Below the pieces are notes generated by a model, which worked only from the letters and a program-made list of their open reading frames with translations, did no database searches and was not told the origin of the DNA. A stretch of DNA of 64,000 nucleotides from Natronosalvus vescus (GTDB lineage Archaea > Halobacteriota > Halobacteria > Halobacteriales > Natrialbaceae): contig NZ_CP099546.1 of NCBI RefSeq assembly GCF_023973145.1, forward strand, positions 620,001 to 684,000. The letters are read 5' to 3'. Position 1 is the first letter of the stretch. Every line of letters begins with the position of its first letter. The position numbers and the translations under genes are program-made. Of the stretch, positions 1,421 to 32,336 are shown in pieces.

Positions 1421-1580
1421 ACCGAGAAATAGAAACCGCGTATACAAACACGTTGGTATCCGCAAGAAACGGATGCCAATATCCGTTCACGCCTGAAATT
1501 CGTTGAGAAATGCTGGAAAATGTTGATCTATTTATAACTGGTCTTGTAAATTATCCAAAATTCGAAACCGACGACGAGAC

Positions 1581-1590
1581 ATTTATATAC
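1581..1590 (+). promoter_or_regulatory. TATA box of the ABC importer operon
   Basis: ATTTATATAC ends 27 bases before the ATG at 1618, so transcription should start within a few bases of the start codon. The surrounding 1530-1600 region is distinctly AT-rich compared with the coding DNA on both sides. Confidence 0.65.
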
Positions 1591-1617
1591 TTTTACCCAA
1601 ACCTATTGGGTGTAGCA

Positions 1618-3279
1618 ATGGGAACACATAACACATCACGCAGAACGGTGCTCAAGGGTGCGGGGGCGGCTGGGGTAGCAGGCCTCGCAGGGTGTCTCGG
1701 TGGCGGTGACGACGACGGCAACGGAGACGTCGACGGTGCCGACGAACTCGGCGAACAATTTCCAGAGATTCACTTCCTCGTACCGACTGCAGGCGTGAAC
1801 GCGTTCCGGAACGAACTCGCCACGATGGTCGCGGAGAACTGGGAAGAAATTGGCTTCGAGGTCAATCTCGAGGAGCTCGAGTTCGGTGCGCACGTCGATC
1901 AGGCAGTCGTCCAGCAGGACTTCGACGCATCGCTCCTCGGCTGGGGTGGAACGCCGGAACGGATCGACCCGCACACGTTCATCTTCGACATGCACCACTC
2001 CTCGACGACGGGGGAAGGTGGGCGGAACACGCCGGGCTACGAAAACCCGGAGTACGACGAACTCGCGGAACTGCAGGTGACGCAGGTCGACGAAGACGAA
2101 CGACAGCAGACGGTGTACGAGGCGCAGGAGATCATCGCTCGCGATCAACCGCGTACTTACGTCGCGAACGAAGGCGGCTTCCACCCGTACGCCAGCTCGC
2201 GCGTCGAGAACGTCGAGGCGGGGCTCGGTGAAGGGTTCAACTCGTTCTGGAATATGATTTCGGTCACGCCAACCGAAAGCGATACGGTTCGCTTTGGCTA
2301 CCCCTCCGAAATTATCTCGCTGAACCCGATGCAGGATCTGGCGACGCCGGACAGGCAGTTCGTCCGCCTCATTTACGATCAACTGTACCGGATCGGCCCG
2401 GACGGGATGCCGACGCCGTGGCTTGCCGTCGACGAGCCCGAAATCGAAGACGACGGGATGGTTTACACCGTCGAGGTGCGCGACGACATGACGTTCCACG
2501 ACGGCGAGGATCTCACGATCGACGACGTCGAGTTCACGTACGAGATGTACGCCGACTCGCCGACGTACGGCTCGCTCGTGGAGAACATCTCGGAGATTGA
2601 CACCTCCGGAAACGAGATTACCTTCCATCTCGATGAACCGTTTGCCCCGTTTACGGCGAACGTTCTCGGCCAGGTGTACATCTTCCCCGAACACATCTGG
2701 GGCGACGTCGAACCGGACGATCTCGCGGACTTCGAGGACGAGAACTGGGTCGGCAGCGGTCCGTTCCAGTTCCAGGACTGGGAGCGCCAAGAGGAACTCC
2801 AGCTCTCGGCGTTCGACGACCACTTCGAGACGCCGAACGCGGATACCTTCATCCGTATCCCCGGTGCGGACGTCTCACAGCTCGTGGGCGACCTCGAGGC
2901 CGGCCAGCTGGATATGCTCGGTGCGGTTCCACAGCCAGCGGCTATCGAGCGCGTGCGAGACGACGACGACCTCGATATGGAGGAGTTCGCGGCCGTCGGT
3001 TACGCGAAGATCGCCTACAACATGCGCCGCGATCATCTGGACGACGTCAACGTTCGCCGCGCACTGTCCTACGGTGTGCCCAAGGAGGACTGGGTCGAAC
3101 TCGTTCGTGACGGCATGGGAACGGTGACCCACACGACGATCTCGGAGGCCGTCGAGTTCTGGCACAACCCCGATGTCGAGCAGTTCGACGAGGATCTCGA
3201 CGCTGCACGAGCGGAACTCGCCGAAGGCGGATACGGCTGGGACGACGACGGAATGCTCCACTACGGCGCAGACCAGTAG
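1618..3279 (+). CDS. ABC transporter solute-binding lipoprotein, family 5, circularly permuted order
   Basis: A 553-residue binding protein for a peptide/nickel/oligosaccharide-type ABC importer. The N-terminus has a Tat motif (SRRTVLKG) and a lipobox with Cys26 (GLAGC), so it is an exported, lipid-anchored protein. The frame is open further upstream, but ATG 1618 fits the signal and the TATA spacing. The classical family-5 start (VRFGYPSEIISLNP, then DDMTFHDGEDLTIDDVEFTY) is found only at about residues 224-310. The stretch that usually ends the family (GFEVNLEELEF, FDASLLGWGG, NPEYDELAELQ, EAQEIIARDQPRTY) lies at about 50-215, right after the lipobox. The chain ends at LDAARAELAEGGYGWDDDG, an element that normally precedes that stretch. 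It heads the importer operon. Substrate unknown. Confidence 0.92.
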   Translation: MGTHNTSRRTVLKGAGAAGVAGLAGCLGGGDDDGNGDVDGADELGEQFPEIHFLVPTAGVNAFRNELATMVAENWEEIGFEVNLEELEFGAHVDQAVVQQDFDASLLGWGGTPERIDPHTFIFDMHHSSTTGEGGRNTPGYENPEYDELAELQVTQVDEDERQQTVYEAQEIIARDQPRTYVANEGGFHPYASSRVENVEAGLGEGFNSFWNMISVTPTESDTVRFGYPSEIISLNPMQDLATPDRQFVRLIYDQLYRIGPDGMPTPWLAVDEPEIEDDGMVYTVEVRDDMTFHDGEDLTIDDVEFTYEMYADSPTYGSLVENISEIDTSGNEITFHLDEPFAPFTANVLGQVYIFPEHIWGDVEPDDLADFEDENWVGSGPFQFQDWERQEELQLSAFDDHFETPNADTFIRIPGADVSQLVGDLEAGQLDMLGAVPQPAAIERVRDDDDLDMEEFAAVGYAKIAYNMRRDHLDDVNVRRALSYGVPKEDWVELVRDGMGTVTHTTISEAVEFWHNPDVEQFDEDLDAARAELAEGGYGWDDDGMLHYGADQ

Positions 3280-3355
3280 GCGAACTGCCATCTTTCATGA
3301 ACGTCTTTCACTATAATCGAATGGTCACGACGACGCACACGAGACGGGGGGAGCG

Positions 3356-4336
3356 ATGGGGCTGAGAGAGTTCGTCATCAGGCGCGTTCTCCAGCTCATC
3401 GTGACGTTCTGGGCGTTCTTTACGATCCTGTTCGTCCTGTTCCGGATGATGCCCGGCGATCCGACGTCGATGTTCATCCTCGACGGGATGACACCGGAAC
3501 AGCGCGAACAACGGATCGCCGAACTCGGGCTCGATCAGCCACTGTACGTTCAGTACGTCGAATACGCCAGGCAACTGCTGACCGGAGACTTCGGCCAGTC
3601 GTTCATCTACCGCGACCCGGTCATGGACATCATCGTCGTCCGGTTCATGAACACGATCGTGCTGATGGCGACGGCGCTGTTTTTCGCGTACGTCATCGGG
3701 ATTACGTTCGGGGCTCTCATGGGCTGGTGGCGCGATTCGAAGTTCGAGCGCGGTGGCATCGTTGTCGCGCTCATCGCTCGATCCTCCCCCGAGTTTTGGG
3801 TTGGGATCGTCCTCCTGTCGGTGTTCGTCTACTGGCTCGGCTGGTTCCCCTCGAGCGGAATGCGAACCACCGGTGGCGAACTCGGCGGCGGCTTCATCGC
3901 CCGATACGGCTCGGTCGATTTCCTCCGCCATCTGTTCCTGCCAGCCTTGACGGGCGCGATCGTCTATCTGGCGACGCCGACGCTCCTGATGCGGAGTACG
4001 ATGCTCGACGTCCTCAACGCGGACTTCATCGAGATCAAGAAAGCGGAGGGGCTACCCGAGCGAACCGTCCTGTACAAACACGCCGCCAGAAACTCGATCT
4101 TGCCGGTCGTGACGGTCGCGGCGATCGCCACAGGTGCGGCGATGGGCGGTTCCGTCGTCATCGAGACGGTCTTCAACTGGCCCGGCATGGGGCGTGAGAT
4201 GGTGCGCGCGGTGAACAACAACGATTACCCGGTCGCGATGGCCGCGTTCTTCCTCATGGGATCGGTCGTGATCATCATGAACTTCGTCGCCGACCTGGCC
4301 TACGTCTACCTCGATCCGAGGGTGGAGTACGAATGA
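3356..4336 (+). CDS. ABC transporter permease, DppB/OppB type
   Basis: A 326-residue inner-membrane subunit of the importer. It begins with the typical RRVLQLIVTFWAFFTILF helix and the conserved MPGDP just after it. It has about six membrane helices and an EAA-type cytoplasmic loop near residues 220-240 (ADFIEIKKAEGLPERTVL) that docks to the ATPases. The ATG at 3356 is preceded by a purine-rich GGGGGGAG stretch that could act as ribosome binding site. It lies 76 bases after the binding protein and overlaps the next permease by four bases (ATGA). It pairs with the following DppC-type subunit to form the transmembrane channel. Confidence 0.95.
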   Translation: MGLREFVIRRVLQLIVTFWAFFTILFVLFRMMPGDPTSMFILDGMTPEQREQRIAELGLDQPLYVQYVEYARQLLTGDFGQSFIYRDPVMDIIVVRFMNTIVLMATALFFAYVIGITFGALMGWWRDSKFERGGIVVALIARSSPEFWVGIVLLSVFVYWLGWFPSSGMRTTGGELGGGFIARYGSVDFLRHLFLPALTGAIVYLATPTLLMRSTMLDVLNADFIEIKKAEGLPERTVLYKHAARNSILPVVTVAAIATGAAMGGSVVIETVFNWPGMGREMVRAVNNNDYPVAMAAFFLMGSVVIIMNFVADLAYVYLDPRVEYE

Positions 4337-5274
4337 GCACTGAAACGACATCCCCCATCGACAACGCGATGGGCAAAGTGGGGAGCAGCGTCGACTTCGT
4401 TCGGGACAAACTCGAGGTGTTCGAGGGTGACCGACTCGGGCAGATTGGCCTGGCCATCCTGCTCGTGTTCGTCTTCGTCGGCATCTTCGCCCGACCGATC
4501 ACGATCGACTTCCTCAATATAACGATTCCGGGGCTCGCACCCCACGATCCGACCGAACGGGGCATCGGTGGGCGACTCGAGAGTCCGTCTGCGGCACACC
4601 CGCTGGGGACGACCGACCTCGGTCGTGACGTCCTCTCACAGCTCATCGTCGGCACGCGCGTGACGCTGGTCGTCGGCACGCTGGCGGCGTTCATGGCGGT
4701 GTTCATCGGCACGAACATCGGCCTCATCAGCGCCTACTTCGGCGGTATCGTCGACGACGTGCTCATGCGAATCACGGACATCGTCTACGGCTTGCCGTTC
4801 TTGCCGTTCGCGATCGTGCTCGTCGCGATTCTTGGCAGCAGCATAGTCAACATCATCGCGGCGATCGTGTTAATCCTGTGGCGCTCGACGGCACGTGTGA
4901 TCCGGTCACAGGTGCTGAGTCACAAGCAACGACCGTACGTCGAGAGCGCACAGGCGATCGGTGCCAGCAACGTCCGAATTATGTATCGGCATATCCTGCC
5001 GAACGTCCTGCCACTGGCGTTCCTGTACGCGGCGTTCGCCGTCGCCTACTCGGTCATCGCCGAGGCGAGCCTCGCGTTCCTCGGCTTTGGCGACCCGAAC
5101 ATGCTCTCGTGGGGTAAGATGATCTTCGAGGTGCGCACCGCCAATGCCGTCCGCGAGGCGTGGTGGTGGGTCTTCCCACCGGGTATCGCCATCATGCTGT
5201 TCGTGATGTCGGTGTTCTTCATCGGCCGCACGCTCGAGAAAGTGGTCAATCCTGAACTGAGGCATCAAGAATGA
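4333..5274 (+). CDS. ABC transporter permease, DppC/OppC type
   Basis: A 313-residue second permease. The first roughly 45 residues are cytoplasmic and charged, then a helix (IGLAILLVFVFVGIFARP). Next come the family's periplasmic-side signature AHPLGTTDLGRDVLSQLIVG (about residues 90-110), several helices, and the EAA loop (YVESAQAIGASNVRIMYRHI, near 200-220). The start overlaps the DppB-type gene by ATGA and its stop overlaps the next ATPase gene by ATGA, so the three genes are translationally coupled. No unusual features were seen. Confidence 0.95.
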   Translation: MSTETTSPIDNAMGKVGSSVDFVRDKLEVFEGDRLGQIGLAILLVFVFVGIFARPITIDFLNITIPGLAPHDPTERGIGGRLESPSAAHPLGTTDLGRDVLSQLIVGTRVTLVVGTLAAFMAVFIGTNIGLISAYFGGIVDDVLMRITDIVYGLPFLPFAIVLVAILGSSIVNIIAAIVLILWRSTARVIRSQVLSHKQRPYVESAQAIGASNVRIMYRHILPNVLPLAFLYAAFAVAYSVIAEASLAFLGFGDPNMLSWGKMIFEVRTANAVREAWWWVFPPGIAIMLFVMSVFFIGRTLEKVVNPELRHQE

Positions 5275-6371
5275 GTTTACTCGAGATATCCAATCTGAAG
5301 ACGTACTACCGGGCCGACGACGGCTGGGTTCGGGCGACCGACGACGTCTCGCTGTCCGTCGACCGCGGCGAAACCGTCGGGCTGGTCGGCGAAAGCGGCA
5401 GCGGGAAGACGACGCTGGCGAAGTCGATTATCCGACTGTTCCCGAAAAACGCCGAGATCGTCGACGGTTCGATCGATTACGACGGGACGGAGGTCACCGA
5501 CCTCTCGGACAGGGAACTGCGCAAGCAGATCCGCTGGTCTGAGATCTCGATGATCCCCCAGAACGCCATGAACGGGTTCGACCCCGTCTACACCGTCGGC
5601 GAACAGATCGTCGAGGTCATCCGCTACCACGAAGACGGTACGTCGAAGCAGGAGGCCCGCGAACGGGCCAGGGAACTGTTCGACGACCTGGGTATCGAAC
5701 CCGACCGCGTCGACGACTACCCCCACCAGTTCTCCGGTGGCATGGCCCAGCGGGCGATGATCGCGCTCGCACTCGCGCTCGATCCGAACATGATTCTGGC
5801 CGACGAGCCGACTACCGCGCTCGACGTGGTGATTCAGGATCGCATCCTCGAGACGATCAAGGAGAAACAACGCGAGATCAACAGCGCGATGATCATGATC
5901 ACCCACGACATGTCGGTGGTCTCGGAGACGTGCGACCGAATCGCCGTCGTCTACGGCGGCCGCATCGTCGAAGTCGCCGACGCGGCGACGATCATCAAGA
6001 ACCCGCGTCACCCCTACACCCTGGGACTGCGAAACGCCTTCCCGGACATCAGCGACGACGATCAGGAGCTGATCTCGATCCCAGGAACGCCGCCGGATCT
6101 GGTCGACCCCGACGAGGGCTGCCGATTCGCGCCGCGGTGTCCGTTCGCCGAGGACGACTGCTGGGAGGTGACGCCCGAACCCGAGGAGTACGAGGACGAG
6201 CACCTCGTCGAGTGCCACCGCGCCGACGAGATCGAATATCTGCAGGAGGAAGCCGGCAAGAAGGAGACCTGGCTCGAGCAGGATATCGGGAAGGATGGCG
6301 ACCTAGCACCCGGGAGCCGAGTCGATGCCGATGCTGATACGGAGGCCGAGGAGGTGACCACCGATGACTGA
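5271..6371 (+). CDS. ABC transporter ATP-binding protein, DppD/OppD type
   Basis: A 366-residue ATPase that energises the importer. Walker A is GESGSGKTT (about 40-48), the signature is [10 protein letters not shown] (near 160), and Walker B is [12 protein letters not shown]. The C-terminal oligopeptide-transporter domain carries four cysteines ([19 protein letters not shown]). This pattern can hold an iron-sulfur cluster in characterised DppD proteins. After it comes an acidic tail ([10 protein letters not shown]), common in halophiles. It overlaps its neighbours on both sides (ATGA upstream, 8 bases downstream). Confidence 0.95.
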
Positions 6372-7662
6372 GGGCCGCGAACTCATCAGTAAACCCGAGT
6401 CGGAGCAGTCGTACAAACTCGAGGTACGCAACCTCGAGAAACACTTTCCGGTGAACACGGGCCTCATCTCCCGCATTTTCCGGGGTGAAAGCGACAAGGT
6501 CGTCAGAGCCGTCGACGGCGTCTCTCTCGGTATTCGTGAGGGTGAGGCGTTTGGATTGGCCGGCGAATCCGGCTGTGGAAAGACGACCCTCGGCAAGTCG
6601 GCGATCCGATTGCTCGAGCCGACGGGTGGAGAACTCTACTTCGATGGGCAGGAGATCACGGACGTCGGGGGAGCCGAACTCAACGCGTTCAGACGCGAGG
6701 CCCAGATCATCCACCAGGATCCCTACCAGTCGATCAACCCCCGATTTACCGTCTACAAGTGGGTCAAAGAGCCCCTCGACGTGCACGACATCGGGACGGC
6801 CGAAGAGCGCGACGCCCGGGTGTACGAGGTCATCGAGCAGTCCGGCCTCGAACCCGCCGAAGCGTACGTAGACGAGTATCCGAGCGAACTCTCCGGCGGC
6901 GAACGCCAGCGCGTCGGCATCGCTCGAGCGCTCGCCCTCGAGCCGTCGTTCCTGCTGGCCGACGAGCCGGCGAGCATGCTCGACGTCTCGATTCGAGCGA
7001 GCATCCTCGACCTGTTCAGGCGGCTCCAGACCGAGCTGGGACTGACGGCGGTGTACATCAGTCACGACCTTTCGTTGCTCAAGCACATGTGCGATCGGAT
7101 CGGGATCATGTACCTCGGCGAACTCGTCGAAGTCGGCCCGGCCGACGAGATCATTAACAATCCCAAACACCCTTACACGCAGGCACTGGTGTCGTCGGTG
7201 CCGCGTATCGATCCGGACGTAGATCGGGAGCGAATCGAACTCGTCGGCGAGGTGCCGGATCCCGTCGACGTGCCGAGTGGCTGTCGGTTCCACCCGCGGT
7301 GTCCGAAACTCGTCCAGCCCACGAACTACGCGTTCGACCAGGATCACTGGCGAGCGGTCGCCAACTTCAGACGCGACCTGCTCGAGGACGACGTGACGAT
7401 CACGAGCGAAGCAGCGGAGGTGACGCCCGAGCGGATCCGTTCGTCCTACGAGATCCCGTCGACGCTCTCGGATTCGGCTGCCGAACGCGTTCTCGCCACT
7501 GCGCTAACGGAGGTGGCCAACGAGAATCACGAGGTCGCCAAGGATCGCCTCGAGACCGAGTTCGCGACGCCGTGTGAACGTCCGCCGATCGAGATGCACC
7601 AGGTGACGCCGAATCAGCAGGCCAAGTGCGTCCTCTACGACGACGTGGGCAGTCGTCAATAG
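6364..7662 (+). CDS. ABC transporter ATP-binding protein, DppF/OppF type, with C-terminal insertion
   Basis: A 432-residue partner ATPase. Walker A is GESGCGKTT (about 68-76), the signature is [10 protein letters not shown], and Walker B is [12 protein letters not shown]. Members are usually about 320-350 residues. Here the C-terminal Cys domain is split: [10 protein letters not shown] (about 306-315) is followed by roughly 95 extra residues. Then come [10 protein letters not shown] (near 404) and AKCVLYDD, which look like the second half of the Cys motif. The insert is mostly helical-looking and charged ([33 protein letters not shown]). It is last in the operon. The core assignment is secure; the insert's role is unknown. 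Confidence 0.93.
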
Positions 7663-25018: not shown

Positions 25019-25390
25019 ATGGCAGACGAACACGACAACGACGCCGACGCTGGCGAGGAAGCCGGTGAGGAGAGCGAGGAGAAATCCTTCCGCGAGCGCG
25101 TCGAGGAGATCCGCGAAAAACGCGAAGCGGAAGCCGAAGAGGGTGAGGGGCCGCCGGAGAGCCCGTTCGGCGGTGGCGGCGGCCCGGGAGGCATGGGTGG
25201 TGGTAACCCGCTGGCCCAGATGATGGGCGGCATGATGGGTGGTGGCCCAGGCGGCCCGGGTGCAGGCCCAGGCGGCGACTCCGGCGTCGGAAACGAGGAA
25301 CTCGTCCGCGAAGTTCGACAGGTTCGGGACGAACTGCGCGACCAGACCCGTGCACTCAACCGGATCGCAGACGCGCTCGAGGACGACTGA
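25019..25390 (+). CDS. acidic Gly/Met-rich protein with C-terminal coiled coil
   Basis: A 123-residue protein in three parts. First comes an acidic helical N-terminus (EEAGEESEEKSFRERVEEIR). Next is a flexible Gly/Pro/Met-rich middle (about residues 50-90, with GGMGGGNPLAQMMGG and MMGGGPGGPGAGPG). Last is a short coiled coil (ELVREVRQVRDELRDQTRAL). There is no signal peptide or enzyme motif. The repeated Met-Met-Gly-Gly pattern resembles disordered, protein-binding or metal-binding linkers. I recognise it only as a haloarchaeal hypothetical. The coiled coil suggests oligomerisation. Alone on its strand. Confidence 0.75.
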   Translation: MADEHDNDADAGEEAGEESEEKSFRERVEEIREKREAEAEEGEGPPESPFGGGGGPGGMGGGNPLAQMMGGMMGGGPGGPGAGPGGDSGVGNEELVREVRQVRDELRDQTRALNRIADALEDD

Positions 25391-25507: not shown

Positions 25508-25560
25508 ACTCGAGTAGCGACTCGTACAACTGACCCTCACTCGAGCAGCGACTCGTACAA
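25508..25560. repeat. imperfect 31-base-period duplication of gene end
   Basis: ACTCGAGTAGCGACTCGTACAA (25508-25529) and ACTCGAGCAGCGACTCGTACAA (25539-25560) differ at one base. The second copy codes the last residues (LYESLLE) of the glycosyltransferase, and the first lies beyond its stop codon in another frame. It is probably a local slippage duplication. Confidence 0.8.
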
Positions 25561-26676
25561 TTCCCGCACCCGATCGATCGATCGATCCACCCCGAGCGCC
25601 TCCCGTCGCTCGAGGCAGTTCGCCGCCAGCTGCTCTCGGTGCTCGAGCACGGCCCGAATCCCGTCCCTGAACGACTCGAGGTCGCCTCGCTCGTAGTGGA
25701 TCCCGGTGACGCCATCCTCGACTGTCTCGGTGAGCGCGCCCGCATCGACGGCGACGACGGGCGTTCCCGTGGCGATCGATTCGAGGGCCACCAGCCCTTG
25801 GGTTTCGACCGGGCTTGGGAAGGCGAAGGCGTCGAGGCTGGCGTAAAACGCCGGCAGTTCCGACCGCTCGAGGAAGCCGAGAAACCGGGCGTCGACGCCA
25901 CGGGCGGCGGCGCGTCGTTCGAGTGCGGGACGGGCGGGGCCGTCGCCGGCGAGGACGAGGGTCACCGCCCGGGATTCGACCGCACCGCCGAACCCGGCCA
26001 CGGCGTCGATCAGTTCCTCGAGACACTTTTCGTGGCCGTGGCGGCCAGTGTAGCCGATCAGGAGCCGGTCGTTTGCTGACTCGAGTCCGTGGTGCGCTCG
26101 AAACGACCCCGCTTCCTCGGGTACCGGTCGAAACCGCTCGAGGTCGACGCCGTTGGAGACGACCGCCACCGGCGTGGAGATGCCGACCCGCTCGCGGACG
26201 TGCTCTCGGGCGGCCCTCGAGGGGGCGATGACGAGGTCTGCCCGATCGTAGAACCACCGTTCGTACGCCGTAGCCGCGGTTTGCAGCAGGCGTGTGAGAC
26301 GACCCCGGGGTGTGACGTAGCCGGCGTACTCCGCGGCCGGCGTGTGGTAGCTCGCGACCAGCGGGATATCCTGCGTTCGTGCGTAACGACTCCCGGCCAG
26401 CCCGAGTGCGAACGGCGTGTGCGCGTGCACCACGTCGGGCCTCGAGAGCCCGTTCGGAACGGTCGGCTGGCCGAGGCGGAACCCGTCGTAGAACGGAAAC
26501 GGAAGGCTCCTGACCGGAAACTCGAGGTCGCCGGGGTCGTAGTCGCCGTCGGGGAAGACAACCGCCATCTGGCCGCCCAGGCGGTGAAAGCGTTCCTGCC
26601 AGGTACTGACGGTGTAGGTGACGCCGTTGACCGTCGGCAGGTACGTATCGGTGAATGCGGCGACCTGGTCGACCAT
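25537..26676 (-). CDS. GT4-family glycosyltransferase
   Basis: A 379-residue retaining glycosyltransferase (GT-B fold). The N-terminal domain starts FTDTYLPTVNGVTYTVSTW, typical of the PimA/alpha-mannosyltransferase-like subgroup, with DVVHAHTPFALG and VASYHTPAAEYAGY. The C-terminal donor-binding domain has LLIGYTGRHGHEKCLEELID and ends in the EX7E-type motif ETQGLVALESIATGTPVV. No signal peptide; it should act at the cytoplasmic membrane face. It is last in a four-gene operon (glycosyltransferase, binding protein, PAP2, this gene), which suggests glycolipid or surface-glycan synthesis. A 22-base duplication of its 3' end follows the stop codon. Confidence 0.92.
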   Translation of the reverse strand: MVDQVAAFTDTYLPTVNGVTYTVSTWQERFHRLGGQMAVVFPDGDYDPGDLEFPVRSLPFPFYDGFRLGQPTVPNGLSRPDVVHAHTPFALGLAGSRYARTQDIPLVASYHTPAAEYAGYVTPRGRLTRLLQTAATAYERWFYDRADLVIAPSRAAREHVRERVGISTPVAVVSNGVDLERFRPVPEEAGSFRAHHGLESANDRLLIGYTGRHGHEKCLEELIDAVAGFGGAVESRAVTLVLAGDGPARPALERRAAARGVDARFLGFLERSELPAFYASLDAFAFPSPVETQGLVALESIATGTPVVAVDAGALTETVEDGVTGIHYERGDLESFRDGIRAVLEHREQLAANCLERREALGVDRSIDRVRELYESLLE

Positions 26677-26753
26677 CGTTGCTCGTCTGGCGACTTTCGG
26701 CTCAGCGGCTTAAGTCGGTCGTTCGTCGCTGACCGGCGCTAGCGACGACGTGC

Positions 26754-27629
26754 TCAGTCTCGGCGGACGTACGACCGAACGCGGGTTGCGCCAGGGATCC
26801 GCTCGAGGACGGCTCCGTTTCCGATGGCGTCGTAGACCGACCAGCGACCGACGAGATACTTCGAGAGGGTGACCGAGATCCAGGCGAGGGCGATCCCGGC
26901 GACGACGTCGGTTGCCCAGTGAATGCCGAGGTACATCGTCGAGATACAGACGCTGATGCCGAGCCAGGCTGCGAGCCAGAACCAGCCGCGGTAGATGTCG
27001 CGAGTTCGATACGATAGTAGTGTGACCGTTACTGCTAGCGAAGTGTGCAGCGACGGGAAGACGTTGGTGTTGCGGTTGACCTGCCTGGTCAGGTGCTGGT
27101 ACCGTGGATACGTGTCGTACAGCAAGGCGTCGATGAGTTCGGGCATCAGGTTCCGGGGGCCGTAGGCGATGATGATCGCATAACAGACGAGGCCGAGCGT
27201 GTAGTTGAGCGTGTAGGCGGTCAGTAGCTCCCGCAACGGGCGCGTGTTCGGGAGCATAAAATACGCGACGACCGGGAAGATGAGCAAGAAGATGTAGCCG
27301 TAGATGTAGATGAACGAGAAGTACGCCGTGAGTTCCGGCGTCGCCTGTGCCTGCAGAAAGAGGATGAAGTCCCCTTCGATGTCGTAGATGACCGGTTGGG
27401 TTATCTCCCAGTCGATGAGCCAAGAGACGTCGGGGAGGTTCTGCCTGGCAACGCTGTTGAACAGCAACACCGTGACGAGCACGACCGTCACGGGAGCCAT
27501 CGCCTTCAGACGGCCTGGCCACTCACGGAGCGTTCGAACCAGTCGCTGACGGCCGACGAAGAGGGCCGTCGAGAGCACGATCAGGGTCGTAACGATGATC
27601 GCCAGCCGAACGAGCACGTCGACCAGCAT
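26754..27629 (-). CDS. PAP2-type membrane phosphatase/transferase
   Basis: A 291-residue protein with about six to seven membrane helices. The PAP2 motifs are FPSLHTSLAVTV (PSxH) and TMYLGIHWATDVVAG (HxxxD), with an upstream NRNTNV stretch. Its layout resembles the Aur1/inositol-phosphorylceramide-synthase branch more than simple lipid phosphatases. Such enzymes move or remove phosphate-linked head groups on lipids at the outer membrane face. Its ATG overlaps the stop of the preceding solute-binding lipoprotein gene (TGATG), so the two are translationally coupled. The glycosyltransferases on either side of the operon suggest a lipid-linked glycan pathway. Confidence 0.88.
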   Translation of the reverse strand: MLVDVLVRLAIIVTTLIVLSTALFVGRQRLVRTLREWPGRLKAMAPVTVVLVTVLLFNSVARQNLPDVSWLIDWEITQPVIYDIEGDFILFLQAQATPELTAYFSFIYIYGYIFLLIFPVVAYFMLPNTRPLRELLTAYTLNYTLGLVCYAIIIAYGPRNLMPELIDALLYDTYPRYQHLTRQVNRNTNVFPSLHTSLAVTVTLLSYRTRDIYRGWFWLAAWLGISVCISTMYLGIHWATDVVAGIALAWISVTLSKYLVGRWSVYDAIGNGAVLERIPGATRVRSYVRRD

Positions 27630-29446
27630 CAGGACCTCACCACCAGCGTCTCACCGTCGTACCGATACCCGGCCTCCTCGAACCCCGATCTGGCGGCCGC
27701 CGCGTCCAGTTCGCCGCCAGTTCCGTGAAACGGCACGACCGGGTCACCGTCCTCGAACGCGAGCGATTGTGGCATCCACTCGTCGAAAACGGGGGTCGCG
27801 ATGGGCGTAGCGTACCCCTCGAACACCGTTTCGGCGGCCCAGGCCTTATCGATCAGTCTGGCAACCGCCTGGCGGAAGTACGGGTTGCTACATGGGCCAC
27901 GACGGACGTTGAATCCCAGGTGGTAGAACTCCTGTGACGTCGTTTGCAACCGACGGAGTTCGTCGGTGTCCTCGAGGTCGCCGAGCGCGTAGGCCTCGAG
28001 GGGCGAGATCGTAACGTCGGCGTCGTCGTTTTCGATGAGCGCGATCGCGGACGGGCTTCGGGGATCGATCTGGGCACGAAAGGAGGTGGCCGTTGCTGCC
28101 GGGAGGTCGACATCCGGTCTGGTCGTGAAGTGGTCGTCGAAGCGCTCGAGGCTCAGGTGTTCGCGCTCGACGCGTTCGTCGAACCGGAACGGGCCGCTGC
28201 CGATCGCCGGCACGTTGTCGACGACGAGTGCCTCCGTGGCGTCCTGGGCCACCCGAACGCCGCGAACGTGTGCCGGATCCGCTCGGGGTTCCCAGATGTG
28301 CTGGGGGAGGATCGGGACGGTCAACGCTCGCTCGACGACGGCTTCGGCGGCGTCGACCTCGGCGGCGATCGTGTGGTTGTCCGGCGTCTCGATCGCGTCC
28401 GCGTCGATGGCTGACGCGAGCCCGCGATAGTGTGGGGACGGCGCGGGAACGTCGGTCTGCCCCATCGCGGTGTCTGCGAGGAACCGGTACGTAAATTCGA
28501 CGTCGTCCGCCGTTACCGGCTCGCCGTCGTGGAACGTATGGTCGTCCCTGATCGTCATTTCGAGGCGGCCGTCCTGGTACGTCCACTCACTCGCCAGCCA
28601 CGGCACCAACTCGTCGGTCTCCGGATCCGGTGTGGCAAGGGAGTCGTACAGCAACTCCATGATCACCGGCTGGTAGCGATACTCGACGGTGAGCGGGTTG
28701 ACGTTTTCAGACGGGCTCGCGTAAATGACCGTCCCACGGAGGCGTCCCGGCTCGTCCGGATCGGCCTCGGTTCCTGGCTCGAGGTCGAGATAGCCAAGTC
28801 GGGTCGCCAGGGCGTGTTCGTTCCAGCCGTCGAAGCGGGTGGTTCGGGCCAGGCGAACCTCTTCGAATCGACAGATGGGGACGAACGGTTGCTCCAGGGC
28901 CACGTACTCGAGCAGTTCTTCGACGGCGTCGCGTCGCTCCTCGCCATCGGTCACTCGCTGACGGTCGAGCAGCCGATCGACTGTCGTGTCCGCGACCCCG
29001 AACGGATTCTGCCAGCCCGCTTCTTCTGCGTACCGTGAGTACAGCGCTTCGTACAGGAAATCCGGATCGCTGCCGCCCGGGTGACGACCGACGTAGAGGT
29101 CGAAGTCGTGATTGATGAGCGTCTCTCGGCGGAACTCCTCGGAGGAACGAAGGCGAATCGAGGTGTCGATGCCGACGGTCTCGAGGTGGTCGGCGAGGCG
29201 GCGAACGATCTGGATCGCCTGTCGGTCGCCGTCAGCCGGCTGGGTCGTGATCGAGAGCGAGAGTTGGTCGAGTCGATTTCGGTTGACTGCCGTTCGAAAT
29301 TCGCGTATGCAGCCGCTGAGGCCGAGTGTAAGTCCGGTTGCCGTCGCTGCGAGCATGGAGCGGCGATCGACCCTTCCCGCGTTTCTAGTCGATGGCTCCG
29401 CTACGCTACGCTCGAACTCTGCCTCGCTTGGCCCGGTTGTGGTCAC
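27629..29446 (-). CDS. orphan family-5 solute-binding lipoprotein, circularly permuted order
   Basis: A 605-residue Tat lipoprotein starting with GTG. Twin arginines (VDRRSMLAATATGL) lead to the lipobox GLSGC with Cys46. The mature chain begins with what is normally the C-terminal part of family-5 binding proteins (ADHLETVGIDTSIRLRS, HDFDLYVGRHPGGSDPDFL, VEELLEYVALEQPFVPIC; about 60-215). The usual N-terminal part (VIYASPSENVNPLTVEYRY, DDHTFHDGEPVTADDVEFTY) begins near residue 240. It ends with LDAAAARSGFEEAGYRYDG, an element normally internal. No permease or ATPase genes are nearby. It lies between a glycosyltransferase gene and a PAP2 gene, coupled to the latter by TGATG. Ligand unknown. 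Confidence 0.9.
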   Translation of the reverse strand: MTTTGPSEAEFERSVAEPSTRNAGRVDRRSMLAATATGLTLGLSGCIREFRTAVNRNRLDQLSLSITTQPADGDRQAIQIVRRLADHLETVGIDTSIRLRSSEEFRRETLINHDFDLYVGRHPGGSDPDFLYEALYSRYAEEAGWQNPFGVADTTVDRLLDRQRVTDGEERRDAVEELLEYVALEQPFVPICRFEEVRLARTTRFDGWNEHALATRLGYLDLEPGTEADPDEPGRLRGTVIYASPSENVNPLTVEYRYQPVIMELLYDSLATPDPETDELVPWLASEWTYQDGRLEMTIRDDHTFHDGEPVTADDVEFTYRFLADTAMGQTDVPAPSPHYRGLASAIDADAIETPDNHTIAAEVDAAEAVVERALTVPILPQHIWEPRADPAHVRGVRVAQDATEALVVDNVPAIGSGPFRFDERVEREHLSLERFDDHFTTRPDVDLPAATATSFRAQIDPRSPSAIALIENDDADVTISPLEAYALGDLEDTDELRRLQTTSQEFYHLGFNVRRGPCSNPYFRQAVARLIDKAWAAETVFEGYATPIATPVFDEWMPQSLAFEDGDPVVPFHGTGGELDAAAARSGFEEAGYRYDGETLVVRS

Positions 29447-29531
29447 GTTCTCTGCGTTACTTCACCGGTAGCCGTATAACAGTATTGCGCCATCGGTCGG
29501 CGAATCGCCACCCGAACGGTTCGCGGCAACC

Positions 29532-30650
29532 TCACCGACCGTGTTCGTCGATTGCGCGGTCATATACCTCGAGCAGCCGCTCGCCGACGCGTTCGAGGCG
29601 GTGTTCGGCAGCGGTTTCCTGGGCGGCTTCGCCGAGACGTTCTCGCAGCCCCGGGTTTGCCGCCAGCCGCTCGAGGGCGCCCCGGAACTCGCGTTCGCTC
29701 GAGCAGAACAGGCAGTCGACGCCGTCGGTGTAGAACTCCCGGAAGACGGGGAGGTCGCGGAGGACGACGGCCTTCCCGCAGGCCATCGCCTCGAGGACGG
29801 CGATCCCCTGGTTCTCGGCGTGGGTCGGAAACAGAAAGACGTCGCCGGCGGCGAACGCCTCGCGTTTGTCGTCGACCCAGCCGGTGAACGTCACGTTCGG
29901 GGGTGGATTTTCTGTCCAGTGGCGAACAACAGGGCTCGCCTGGGGGCCGCTGTCATAGGGGCCGAACCAGACGAACTCGTAGGGCATCCGTACGGCGAGA
30001 CGGCAAAACGTCGAGAGCCCCTTACGCTCGAACACGTTGCCGACGGCGAAGACGACCAGGTCGTCCGCCGCGAGGCTGAACCGATCGCGCGCCGGTTCTC
30101 GAAGGCGATCGACTCCCTCGAGCGAGGCGTGGTCGACCCCGTTCGTGATCGGTTCGATGGGGGCGTCGACCGGGTAGGCCTCGAGGTGGCGTTTCGTCTG
30201 CTCGCTGGGACAGCAGACGAGGTCGGCCCGGGAGTACATATAGCGGAGATAGCGTCCGAGCGGCCCGGCGAGCGTGTTCGAGCCACGAAAGCTTCCCCGG
30301 AAGTCCTCGCGAGTGACGTGTGCGTGGAGGACGAGCGGGATGCCGTGGCGGTTGGCGTATCGAGCGACGGCAAGCGAACCGGGGCCAATAGCGTTGCAGT
30401 GGACGACGTCGTGGACGGCGATGGGCAGTGAGTCACGGAACAGCCTGACGGGAACGCCGGCGAGCGAGCCACCCCACGGATCTGTACAGACCTCAAGGTC
30501 GACCGGGTCGACGGGCAACTCGTCGTCACCGCCGTCGGCTCTCGCTCGCTCTCGAAGCCGAGTCAGCGCCCGCCGCTGCTGGGCGGCGGCCGTCCCGATG
30601 CCGCTTCGCTGGAGCGCTCTCTCGAGTTCCAGGTAGGTGAGTACGCGCAC
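29532..30650 (-). CDS. GT4-family glycosyltransferase
   Basis: A 372-residue glycosyltransferase, the first gene of the operon. The frame is open far upstream, but the first family-like start is GTG 30650 (VRVLTYLELERALQRSG). The acceptor domain includes VVHCNAIGPGSLAVARY and VLHAHVTREDFRGSF. The donor domain has VVFAVGNVFERKGLSTF and the EX7E-type motif ENQGIAVLEAMACGKAVV. Cytoplasmic with peripheral membrane binding likely. It precedes the orphan binding protein by 86 bases and is divergent from the RNase P subunit gene. Donor and acceptor cannot be told. Confidence 0.9.
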   Translation of the reverse strand: MRVLTYLELERALQRSGIGTAAAQQRRALTRLRERARADGGDDELPVDPVDLEVCTDPWGGSLAGVPVRLFRDSLPIAVHDVVHCNAIGPGSLAVARYANRHGIPLVLHAHVTREDFRGSFRGSNTLAGPLGRYLRYMYSRADLVCCPSEQTKRHLEAYPVDAPIEPITNGVDHASLEGVDRLREPARDRFSLAADDLVVFAVGNVFERKGLSTFCRLAVRMPYEFVWFGPYDSGPQASPVVRHWTENPPPNVTFTGWVDDKREAFAAGDVFLFPTHAENQGIAVLEAMACGKAVVLRDLPVFREFYTDGVDCLFCSSEREFRGALERLAANPGLRERLGEAAQETAAEHRLERVGERLLEVYDRAIDEHGR

Positions 30651-30773: not shown

Positions 30774-31061
30774 ATGAGCGTCGCCGCCGAACGCATCGAC
30801 CGCCTCCACGAGCTGGCTCGAGCGGCGGCTGCCGACGGCGAGGACGAACGGGCGAAAGCGTACGTCAGGCTGGCGCGTCGCGTTGCCGAGCGAAACCGGC
30901 TGGCGCTCCCGCGGACGTTCAAACGCTTCACGTGTGACGCCTGCGACGCCTACCTCCGGCCCGGCGTGAACGCTCGAGTCCGCCTCCAGAACGGCCACGT
31001 CGTCGTTACCTGCGACTGCGGTCACCACGCCCGTTATCCCTACGACCGACACGACGGGTGA
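30774..31061 (+). CDS. rnp4: ribonuclease P protein component 4
   Basis: A 95-residue zinc-ribbon subunit (Rpr2/Rpp21 family) of archaeal RNase P, which matures tRNA 5' ends. The N-terminal helices (AAERIDRLHELARAAAADG, RAKAYVRLARRVAERN) are followed by KRFTCDACDAYLRPG and VTCDCGHHARYPY, which give the CxxC...CxC metal site. Starts at GTG 30771 or ATG 30774 are equally placed; ATG is chosen. It is the first of a plus-strand cluster with yhbY and the MscS channel, an arrangement that makes sense for the two RNA-related genes. Confidence 0.93.
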   Translation: MSVAAERIDRLHELARAAAADGEDERAKAYVRLARRVAERNRLALPRTFKRFTCDACDAYLRPGVNARVRLQNGHVVVTCDCGHHARYPYDRHDG

Positions 31062-31176
31062 CGGCTGTACAACGCGACTCGAGACGCCACTGTATCTGGT
31101 TCTCGCCGCCGCTTTTGTCTCTTTCACCCCAACGTATTCGGGAACATTGAAACGGACGGCGGCCATATCCCGCGGT

Positions 31177-31425
31177 ATGGACGAACAAGAGCTCAAGCGC
31201 CGCGCACACGACCTCGACGTCACCGTGTGGGTCGGCAAGGGCGGGATCGACTCGGTCGTCGACGAACTGAACGACCAGCTCGCGAACGAGAACCTGATCA
31301 AGGTCAAGTTCCTCCGGGCGGCTCGAGCGGGCGATCCGACCGAGGAGAAAGCGGCCGACCTCGCTGACCGCGTCAACGGCCAGCTCATCGAGACCCGTGG
31401 ACACACCGCAGTGATCTATCGATGA
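31177..31425 (+). CDS. YhbY/CRM-domain RNA-binding protein
   Basis: An 82-residue protein consisting of one CRS1-YhbY (CRM) domain, which binds ribosomal precursor RNA. The family signature is seen as VTVWVGKGGIDSVVDELNDQ (GKGG loop) and ENLIKVKFLRAARAG, with NGQLIETRGHTAVIYR at the end. ATG 31177 is chosen over an upstream in-frame ATG at 31147 because the domain begins here. Its last bases overlap the MscS gene by ATGA. Confidence 0.92.
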   Translation: MDEQELKRRAHDLDVTVWVGKGGIDSVVDELNDQLANENLIKVKFLRAARAGDPTEEKAADLADRVNGQLIETRGHTAVIYR

Positions 31426-32336
31426 TTGGGGTTCCCTTGCAGGCCGACGGGGACGACCTCGGTTTTCTCGGTGATCAGCTCGAATCCCTCGTCGGTGACG
31501 CCCTGGCGAGTACGCTCGAGAGCGCGATCATCTTCGTTCTCGCGTTTCTCTTCCTCTGGATCGTTGGCCGACTCGTCGTCGGGGCGCTCGTCAAGCGGGC
31601 GCTCGATCGGCGCGAACTCGATCGACACGCCCAGAAACCGCTGTTGATGATCACTCGGTTCGCGATTGCGTTCGTCGCCATCGCGATCGCGTTCGGGGCT
31701 GCCGATTATGGGAACTTCCTCGTGTCGATGGCCGGCATCGCCGCCGCCGGGGCGCTCGCAGTTGGGTTTGCCATGCAAAGCGTGATCTCGAACTTCGTCG
31801 CTGGCGTGTTCATCTACACCGACCGACCGTTTCGCATTGGGGACTGGATCGAGTGGGACAACGGTGATTACTCGGGTATCGTCGAGGACATCAGCCTGCG
31901 GGTCACCCGCGTCCGCACGTTCGACAACGAACTGCTGACCGTCCCGAACAGTGAACTCACCGGCGGCGTCCTCATGAACCCCGTCGACGCCGACAGGCTC
32001 CGGCAGAAGTTCGTCTTCGGTATCGGGTACGACGACGACATCCAGCAAGCCACCGACATCATCATCGAGGAAGCCAAGCGCCACCCCGACATCATGGAAG
32101 ACCCTGCACCGAGCGTCCGGCTGACCGAACTCGGCGACTCCGACGTCGGCCTCCAGTCGCGCTTCTGGATCGCCAACCCCTCCCGGGCCGACTTCGTCCG
32201 GATCCGCGGGGAGTACGTCCAGTCGGTGAAAGAGCGATTCGACGAGGAGGGCATCGACATCCCCTACCCCGTCCGCACGCTCGAGGGTGCGCTGGGGCTC
32301 GAGACCCCGGCGGCGCTCGAGGTGGCGGACGACTGA
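31422..32336 (+). CDS. MscS-family mechanosensitive channel
   Basis: A 304-residue channel that opens under membrane tension to release solutes on hypo-osmotic shock, a real threat for a salt-in halophile. Two to three helices come first (IIFVLAFLFLWIVGRLVVGA, MITRFAIAFVAIAIAFGAA). The pore helix MAGIAAAGALAVGFAMQSVI has the Gly/Ala packing typical of MscS. The beta domain follows (RPFRIGDWIEWDNGDYSGIV, RTFDNELLTVPNSEL), then the C-terminal alpha/beta domain. The start overlaps the yhbY stop by four bases, so they are co-translated. Confidence 0.95.
   Translation: MIGVPLQADGDDLGFLGDQLESLVGDALASTLESAIIFVLAFLFLWIVGRLVVGALVKRALDRRELDRHAQKPLLMITRFAIAFVAIAIAFGAADYGNFLVSMAGIAAAGALAVGFAMQSVISNFVAGVFIYTDRPFRIGDWIEWDNGDYSGIVEDISLRVTRVRTFDNELLTVPNSELTGGVLMNPVDADRLRQKFVFGIGYDDDIQQATDIIIEEAKRHPDIMEDPAPSVRLTELGDSDVGLQSRFWIANPSRADFVRIRGEYVQSVKERFDEEGIDIPYPVRTLEGALGLETPAALEVADD

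Follow-up and report, generated by a model that had tools for sequence, protein, structure and literature searches.

A lipoprotein with the fold of family-5 substrate-binding proteins (SBPs), its segments in circularly permuted order, and an Aur1-like PAP2 membrane enzyme are encoded as a linked and co-inherited gene pair in Halobacteria. An earlier note on this DNA had placed both genes in a four-gene operon for a glycolipid or polyprenyl-glycan pathway. Genome comparison indicates that this "operon" is two modules with the SBP lipoprotein and PAP2 as the conserved core; compared with the proposed operon, the pair is smaller and much better conserved, and the topology of one of its proteins is unusual. 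We consider it fairly probable (about 0.55) that the pair is a functional unit, in which an envelope enzyme of the outer face acts with a dedicated binding-protein partner, in the manner of LpqW. Binding proteins are mainly regarded as components of import or sensing systems; the one described here is linked to a membrane phospho-enzyme in one genome after another.

The analysed window covers 64,000 nucleotides of a haloarchaeal chromosome of 3.84 Mb (G000:C1:620001-684000). The four minus-strand genes reported previously, encoding a GT4 glycosyltransferase, an SBP_bac_5 lipoprotein, PAP2, and a second GT4 glycosyltransferase, are all present at the positions given for them. They and the other relevant features are as follows.

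1510..3279, plus strand: second circularly permuted SBP_5, an ABC-linked relative, with Dpp-type permeases (3356, 4333) and ATPases (5271, 6364)
25019..25390, plus strand: small conserved flank gene, no Pfam match (conserved synteny)
25537..26676, minus strand: GT1, GT4-family glycosyltransferase (Pfam Glyco_transf_4 / Glycos_transf_1)
26754..27629, minus strand: PAP2_3 (Aur1-like) membrane enzyme (Pfam PAP2_3, AF2, Aur1 fold match)
27629..29446, minus strand: circularly permuted SBP_bac_5 lipoprotein, GTG start, Tat signal, lipobox Cys46 (Pfam PF00496, N-terminal profile, AF2)
27632..28756, minus strand: SBP residues 231-605, corresponding to the canonical SBP_5 N-terminal and middle part (superposition on 4oet)
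28757..29308, minus strand: SBP residues 47-230, corresponding to the canonical SBP_5 C-terminal part, the permuted segment (profile matches)
29532..30650, minus strand: GT2, GT4-family glycosyltransferase, GTG start at 30650 (Pfam Glycos_transf_1)
30774..31061, plus strand: RNase P component 4 (Rpr2), divergently oriented neighbour and marker of the ancestral site (PF04032)
31422..32336, plus strand: MscS-like channel, conserved flank (PF00924, conserved synteny)

Both GT4 assignments are sound, with Pfam scores well above the cut-off. The intergenic distances had been given as 86, -1, and 77 bases; the last two are right, and the first is 85. SBP and PAP2 are indeed coupled through TGATG, the SBP stop and the PAP2 start sharing one base. 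A divergent cluster of RNase P component 4, YhbY, and MscS occupies 30774-32336; throughout Halobacteria, its relatives identify the ancestral GT2-GT1 site.

The twin Arg, Gly, and Cys of the SBP signal (R28 R29 ... G45 C46) are invariant among 20 homologues, and the family core residues are conserved in the protein. The SBP scores 157.7 bits against SBP_bac_5 (PF00496; gathering cut-off 32.4), with Pfam positions 1-283 aligned to residues 279-599, that is, to the C-terminal part only. The N-terminal part matches in BLASTP the C-terminal ends of canonical paralogues from the same genome, and the family profile finds its two blocks in swapped order in five of these paralogues; the shorter blocks score low individually, and the register is nonetheless the same. 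A 65-sequence profile of the SBP aligns to B. subtilis AppA (1xoc) with positions 237-577 on chain residues 40-345 and positions 30-189 on residues 340-496 (i-E 4.8e-8). The profile of the N-terminal segment alone matched 30 solved SBP_5 chains, with every match lying in the C-terminal third and 5u4o as the best PDB match (E 9.5e-8). In the AlphaFold (AF2) model (pLDDT 92.7), residues 182-559 of the mature SBP superpose on residues 1-328 of the 494-residue NikZ (4oet; Z 22.6, 323 aligned); the structural aligners are sequential and hence cover only this part, as expected for a permutant. Compared with the canonical SBP_5 order, the segments are swapped.

The swapped profile blocks, the BLASTP result, the matches to PDB chains, and the NikZ superposition together demonstrate that the SBP is, as judged from its sequence, a circularly permuted family-5 SBP, the cut lying behind the helix with the AGY-type motif at its end. 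By the same comparisons, its first 180 residues correspond to the C-terminal part of canonical SBPs and are not an unrelated domain. This point was absent from the earlier note. Rescoring rotated canonical paralogues with the permuted profile was also tried as a permutation test; the score was barely raised, since the N-terminal segment gives little signal in individual sequences, and it was the profile comparison with PDB chains that decided. In a literature of limited coverage we found no paper on permuted family-5 (cluster C) SBPs. A membrane-tethered SBP of another cluster, TpMglB-2 (Tp0684) of Treponema, has been reported to be naturally permuted; that protein, however, is a sugar SBP of cluster B, and no PAP2 partner has been described for it (PMC4990184).

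The SBP had been called an orphan, and rightly so, since the genes on either side of the pair in the window include neither an ABC permease nor an ATPase. It shares the fold, Pfam family, and core motifs of the Dpp/Opp/App family-5 SBPs (AppA 1xoc, NikZ 4oet, DppA) but differs from them in being permuted and in lacking permeases and ATPases. Dpp probes gave no match around a PAP2-linked locus (L165), though they matched around ABC-linked permuted SBPs. The second permuted SBP_5 of the window heads a complete Dpp-type ABC operon (1510-7662). This arrangement is shared by other haloarchaea (L159, L161-L164) and by rhizobia (Neorhizobium galegae). Common to these transporter-linked relatives, the permutation defines a subclass of family-5 SBPs by topology. 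When a tree was rooted with rotated canonical paralogues, the PAP2-linked SBPs formed a monophyletic group (support 0.93) and the ABC-linked permuted SBPs a paraphyletic one, which suggests that the PAP2-linked clade derived from a permuted transporter component and that the transporter was lost. As the tree is small and some of its branches are long, we assign moderate support to the loss step.

The genomes document the coupling and co-inheritance of SBP and PAP2. Both families are present in 73 of 116 Halobacteria genomes and both are missing from the other 43, so that the two genome lists are identical. By coordinates, the genes are adjacent on the same strand, SBP first and then PAP2, in 72 of the 73 genomes, the exception being G058. 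PAP2 lies immediately downstream of 99 of 115 SBP genes (76 named loci), and 54 of these 99 pairs have the 1-base overlap. SBP and PAP2 distances are strongly correlated (Mantel r 0.915, n=99), a value reached by none of 999 permutations. At the 24 loci with tandem pairs, all 276 comparisons were concordant, each SBP having been duplicated and inherited together with its partner PAP2. Genomes with and without the pair occur within several genera (e.g., g47, g52, g54, g55, g58, g60), so both genes must have been gained or lost together repeatedly. The recurrence of the SBP-PAP2 order throughout Halobacteria argues that the link proposed between them is not due to chance; the four-gene order, in contrast, is not general and was found in no fewer than nine further genomes of Natrialbaceae. 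A search of the phylum sample at E 1e-40 gave no copy outside Halobacteria. Some PAP2 paralogues have no SBP. SBPs without PAP2 are found in L129, L055, and G058 and as the second copy in Natrinema-type SBP-PAP2-SBP arrays, which account for 14 of the 16 SBP genes without a downstream PAP2 (L103, L106, L109, L110, L112, L114-L116, L119, L121, L124, L125, L127, L128). A 1336 aa open frame in G040 that resembled an SBP-PAP2 fusion was ruled out, PAP2 being a separate downstream match.

The description of the second protein as an Aur1-like PAP2 membrane enzyme is borne out. It scores 70.0 bits against Pfam PAP2_3 (cut-off 27) and has the catalytic motifs PSxH and H-x3-D; alignment of 48 homologues demonstrates that S193, H195 (PSLH), H237, and D241 (H-x3-D) are invariant. 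The signature of classical PAP2 phosphatases is incomplete: the Arg of SRX5HX3D is Thr (T231, invariant), and the KX6RP motif is not present, although there is an invariant GPR at 157-159. The fold nearest to the AlphaFold (AF2) model (pLDDT 90.4) is the Aur1 IPC synthase 9vj4 (Z 18.6, rmsd 3.0, 215 aligned), and the Aur1-Kei1 complex 9ivc gives Z 17.4. PgpB and undecaprenyl-diphosphate phosphatase models are matched weakly. Aur1 and the haloarchaeal PAP2 are thus alike in fold and in the PSLH and HxxxD motifs; the latter protein is, however, archaeal, and its candidate partner is the SBP lipoprotein rather than Kei1. We know of no ceramide pathway in haloarchaea, and a literature of partial coverage yielded nothing on haloarchaeal PAP2. 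The mean number of Lys+Arg versus Asp+Glu residues is 6.1 versus 2.2 in loop A and 2.7 versus 3.4 and 0 versus 0 in the loops around the catalytic motifs. By the positive-inside rule these charges place the catalytic loops outside, so the active site is predicted to face the same side as the lipoprotein anchor. The folds of both proteins are likewise predictions.

The glycosyltransferases form a separate, older module. GT2 and GT1 are adjacent as a pair without SBP-PAP2 in many Halobacteria, and the genes around them match those of the present locus: MscS flanks one side, accompanied in several genomes by a small RNase P-like gene, and at L172 the other side carries the 25019-type gene and DUF2797 as well. 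The simplest history is that the GT2-GT1 pair is ancestral, that SBP-PAP2 was inserted between the two genes in Natrialbaceae, and that one or both glycosyltransferases were lost in many lineages. GT2 matches NF053513, the IagA/BgsA-type diacylglycerol/LTA-anchor glucosyltransferases, with E 3.2e-79 and 266 bits, which is below the cut-off of 460 and makes it a relative of these enzymes, not a member. In G055, the 1.4 kb between GT2 and GT1 was considered as a possible PAP2 and ruled out, as it encodes an opposite-strand, transporter-like membrane protein.

Other genes accompany the pair outside Natrialbaceae, counted here as loci and not as independent events: a GT-C-like membrane protein at 12 loci in 8 genera (PMT_2 7.8e-7 in L179), an arylsulfotransferase at 8, and DsbA at 9. 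At 16 loci a membrane protein of 390-490 residues is encoded upstream of the pair, in most cases immediately before it and on its strand (L134:1924-3186 and homologues in L139, L143, L145, L147, L149, L151, L152, L154, and L178); it is a candidate third component. One member, when searched, had no Pfam or NCBIfam match, and an LssY_C-like identity suggested by eye for the 420-aa protein found no Pfam support. The arylsulfotransferase adjoins the GT-C-like protein in L129, L133, L136, L140, L145, L178, L179, and L181, and in L129 this cluster has an SBP but no PAP2. The two genes possibly form a cluster for outer-face sulfation and glycosylation in haloarchaea; in a literature of partial coverage nothing was found on haloarchaeal arylsulfotransferase. 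Most neighbour proteins are expected at the outer face, which supports a role in envelope glycans or glycolipids. The envelope setting envisaged in the earlier note therefore stands, given also the likeness of GT2 to diacylglycerol glucosyltransferases; as these neighbours vary between families, the pathway is not fixed by context.

The closest parallel we find is LpqW of Mycobacterium and Corynebacterium (structure 2grv). To our knowledge, no two-gene coupling of LpqW with PAP2 has been described. LpqW is an orphan SBP_5-like lipoprotein with no transporter role described, which promotes MptB in lipomannan synthesis and the loss of which lowers MptB activity and lipomannan synthesis (PMC7261415). 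The link between a family-5 protein and PAP2 had been called unfamiliar; a family-5-like lipoprotein tied to membrane enzymes of envelope-glycolipid synthesis has a precedent (PMC7261415). The N-terminal segment profile of the haloarchaeal SBP matches LpqW at 405-473 (E 2e-6). That segment, however, lies in the C-terminal part of LpqW, in canonical order, whereas the haloarchaeal SBP is permuted, and the partners of LpqW are mannosyltransferases and not PAP2.

We propose that the lipoprotein descends from a permuted SBP of the dipeptide type whose ABC transporter was lost; anchored on the membrane's outer face, it would be the dedicated partner of an Aur1-like PAP2 with its active site open to the same face. 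The unit probably acts on lipid- or glycan-linked phosphates at the cell exterior. PAP2 would most likely remove or transfer a phosphate-linked group on a polyprenyl- or archaeol-linked (glyco)lipid, a step in the maturation of envelope glycans or glycolipids, and SBP may present the ligand to PAP2 or switch it on, much as LpqW works with actinobacterial mannosyltransferases. We infer the physical interaction of the two proteins, as well as the chemistry and the substrate. Glycosyl- and sulfo-transfer genes would be variable partners, GT4s here and GT-C with arylsulfotransferase elsewhere. Tentatively, and at less than even odds, the permuted, transporter-free SBP_5 may be an obligate subunit of an Aur1-like outer-face phosphotransferase, making the pair a two-component system for lipid or glycan phosphotransfer in the envelope, specific to haloarchaea, and the SBP the first of a new class of binding proteins coupled to an enzyme. 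If SBP and PAP2 do form a complex, it would give access to the phosphate chemistry of lipids and glycans at the outer face of haloarchaea and would be a second, independent case of the LpqW principle.

Several other explanations deserve consideration. The SBP could scavenge, capturing a soluble extracellular phosphorylated or peptide ligand and handing it to PAP2 for dephosphorylation or transfer, a version of the hand-over envisaged in the earlier note. The conserved core residues of its fold, sugar-phosphate binders (AccA) among its close structural relatives, and the predicted location of SBP and active site on one face are all compatible with this; yet no transporter for product uptake adjoins the pair and the neighbours are envelope rather than uptake genes, so we regard scavenging as somewhat unlikely. 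The single four-gene glycolipid pathway of the earlier note draws on the operon-like spacing of the genes, seen here and in nine or more further Natrialbaceae, and on the resemblance of GT2 to diacylglycerol glucosyltransferases. However, GT2-GT1 also occupies this site where SBP-PAP2 is missing from it, and glycosyltransferases adjoin only a minority of SBP-PAP2 pairs; the four-gene unit is not supported, and a common pathway seems unlikely.

It is quite improbable that the SBP is a sensor of peptides (antibiotic- or halocin-like) or envelope stress that controls PAP2 as a polyprenyl-diphosphate phosphatase in resistance, with no hand-over of ligand. The SBP_5 fold commonly binds peptides, the weak matches to PgpB and undecaprenyl-diphosphate phosphatase models fit such an activity, and some pairs are carried on plasmids, but no resistance genes were seen nearby and the nearest fold is Aur1, not BcrC or PgpB. 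That the SBP still serves a transporter encoded elsewhere, its linkage to PAP2 being operon convenience only, we hold to be very improbable: although permuted relatives sit in complete Dpp-type gene clusters, the SBP co-occurs perfectly with PAP2, co-evolves with it pair by pair, and has been duplicated together with it, all of which speaks against this reading, as does the absence of a Dpp match around L165.

The pair is found on large plasmids in Haloferax gibbonsii (pHG2), Haloarcula sp. JP-L23, Halostagnicola larsenii, and Halobaculum halophilum (L178-L181), and such carriage may explain its patchy distribution. The genome analysed here has a second, divergent SBP-PAP2 pair (L052:7088-10023; G000:C1 about 1547087-1550022), which stands alone between unrelated genes.
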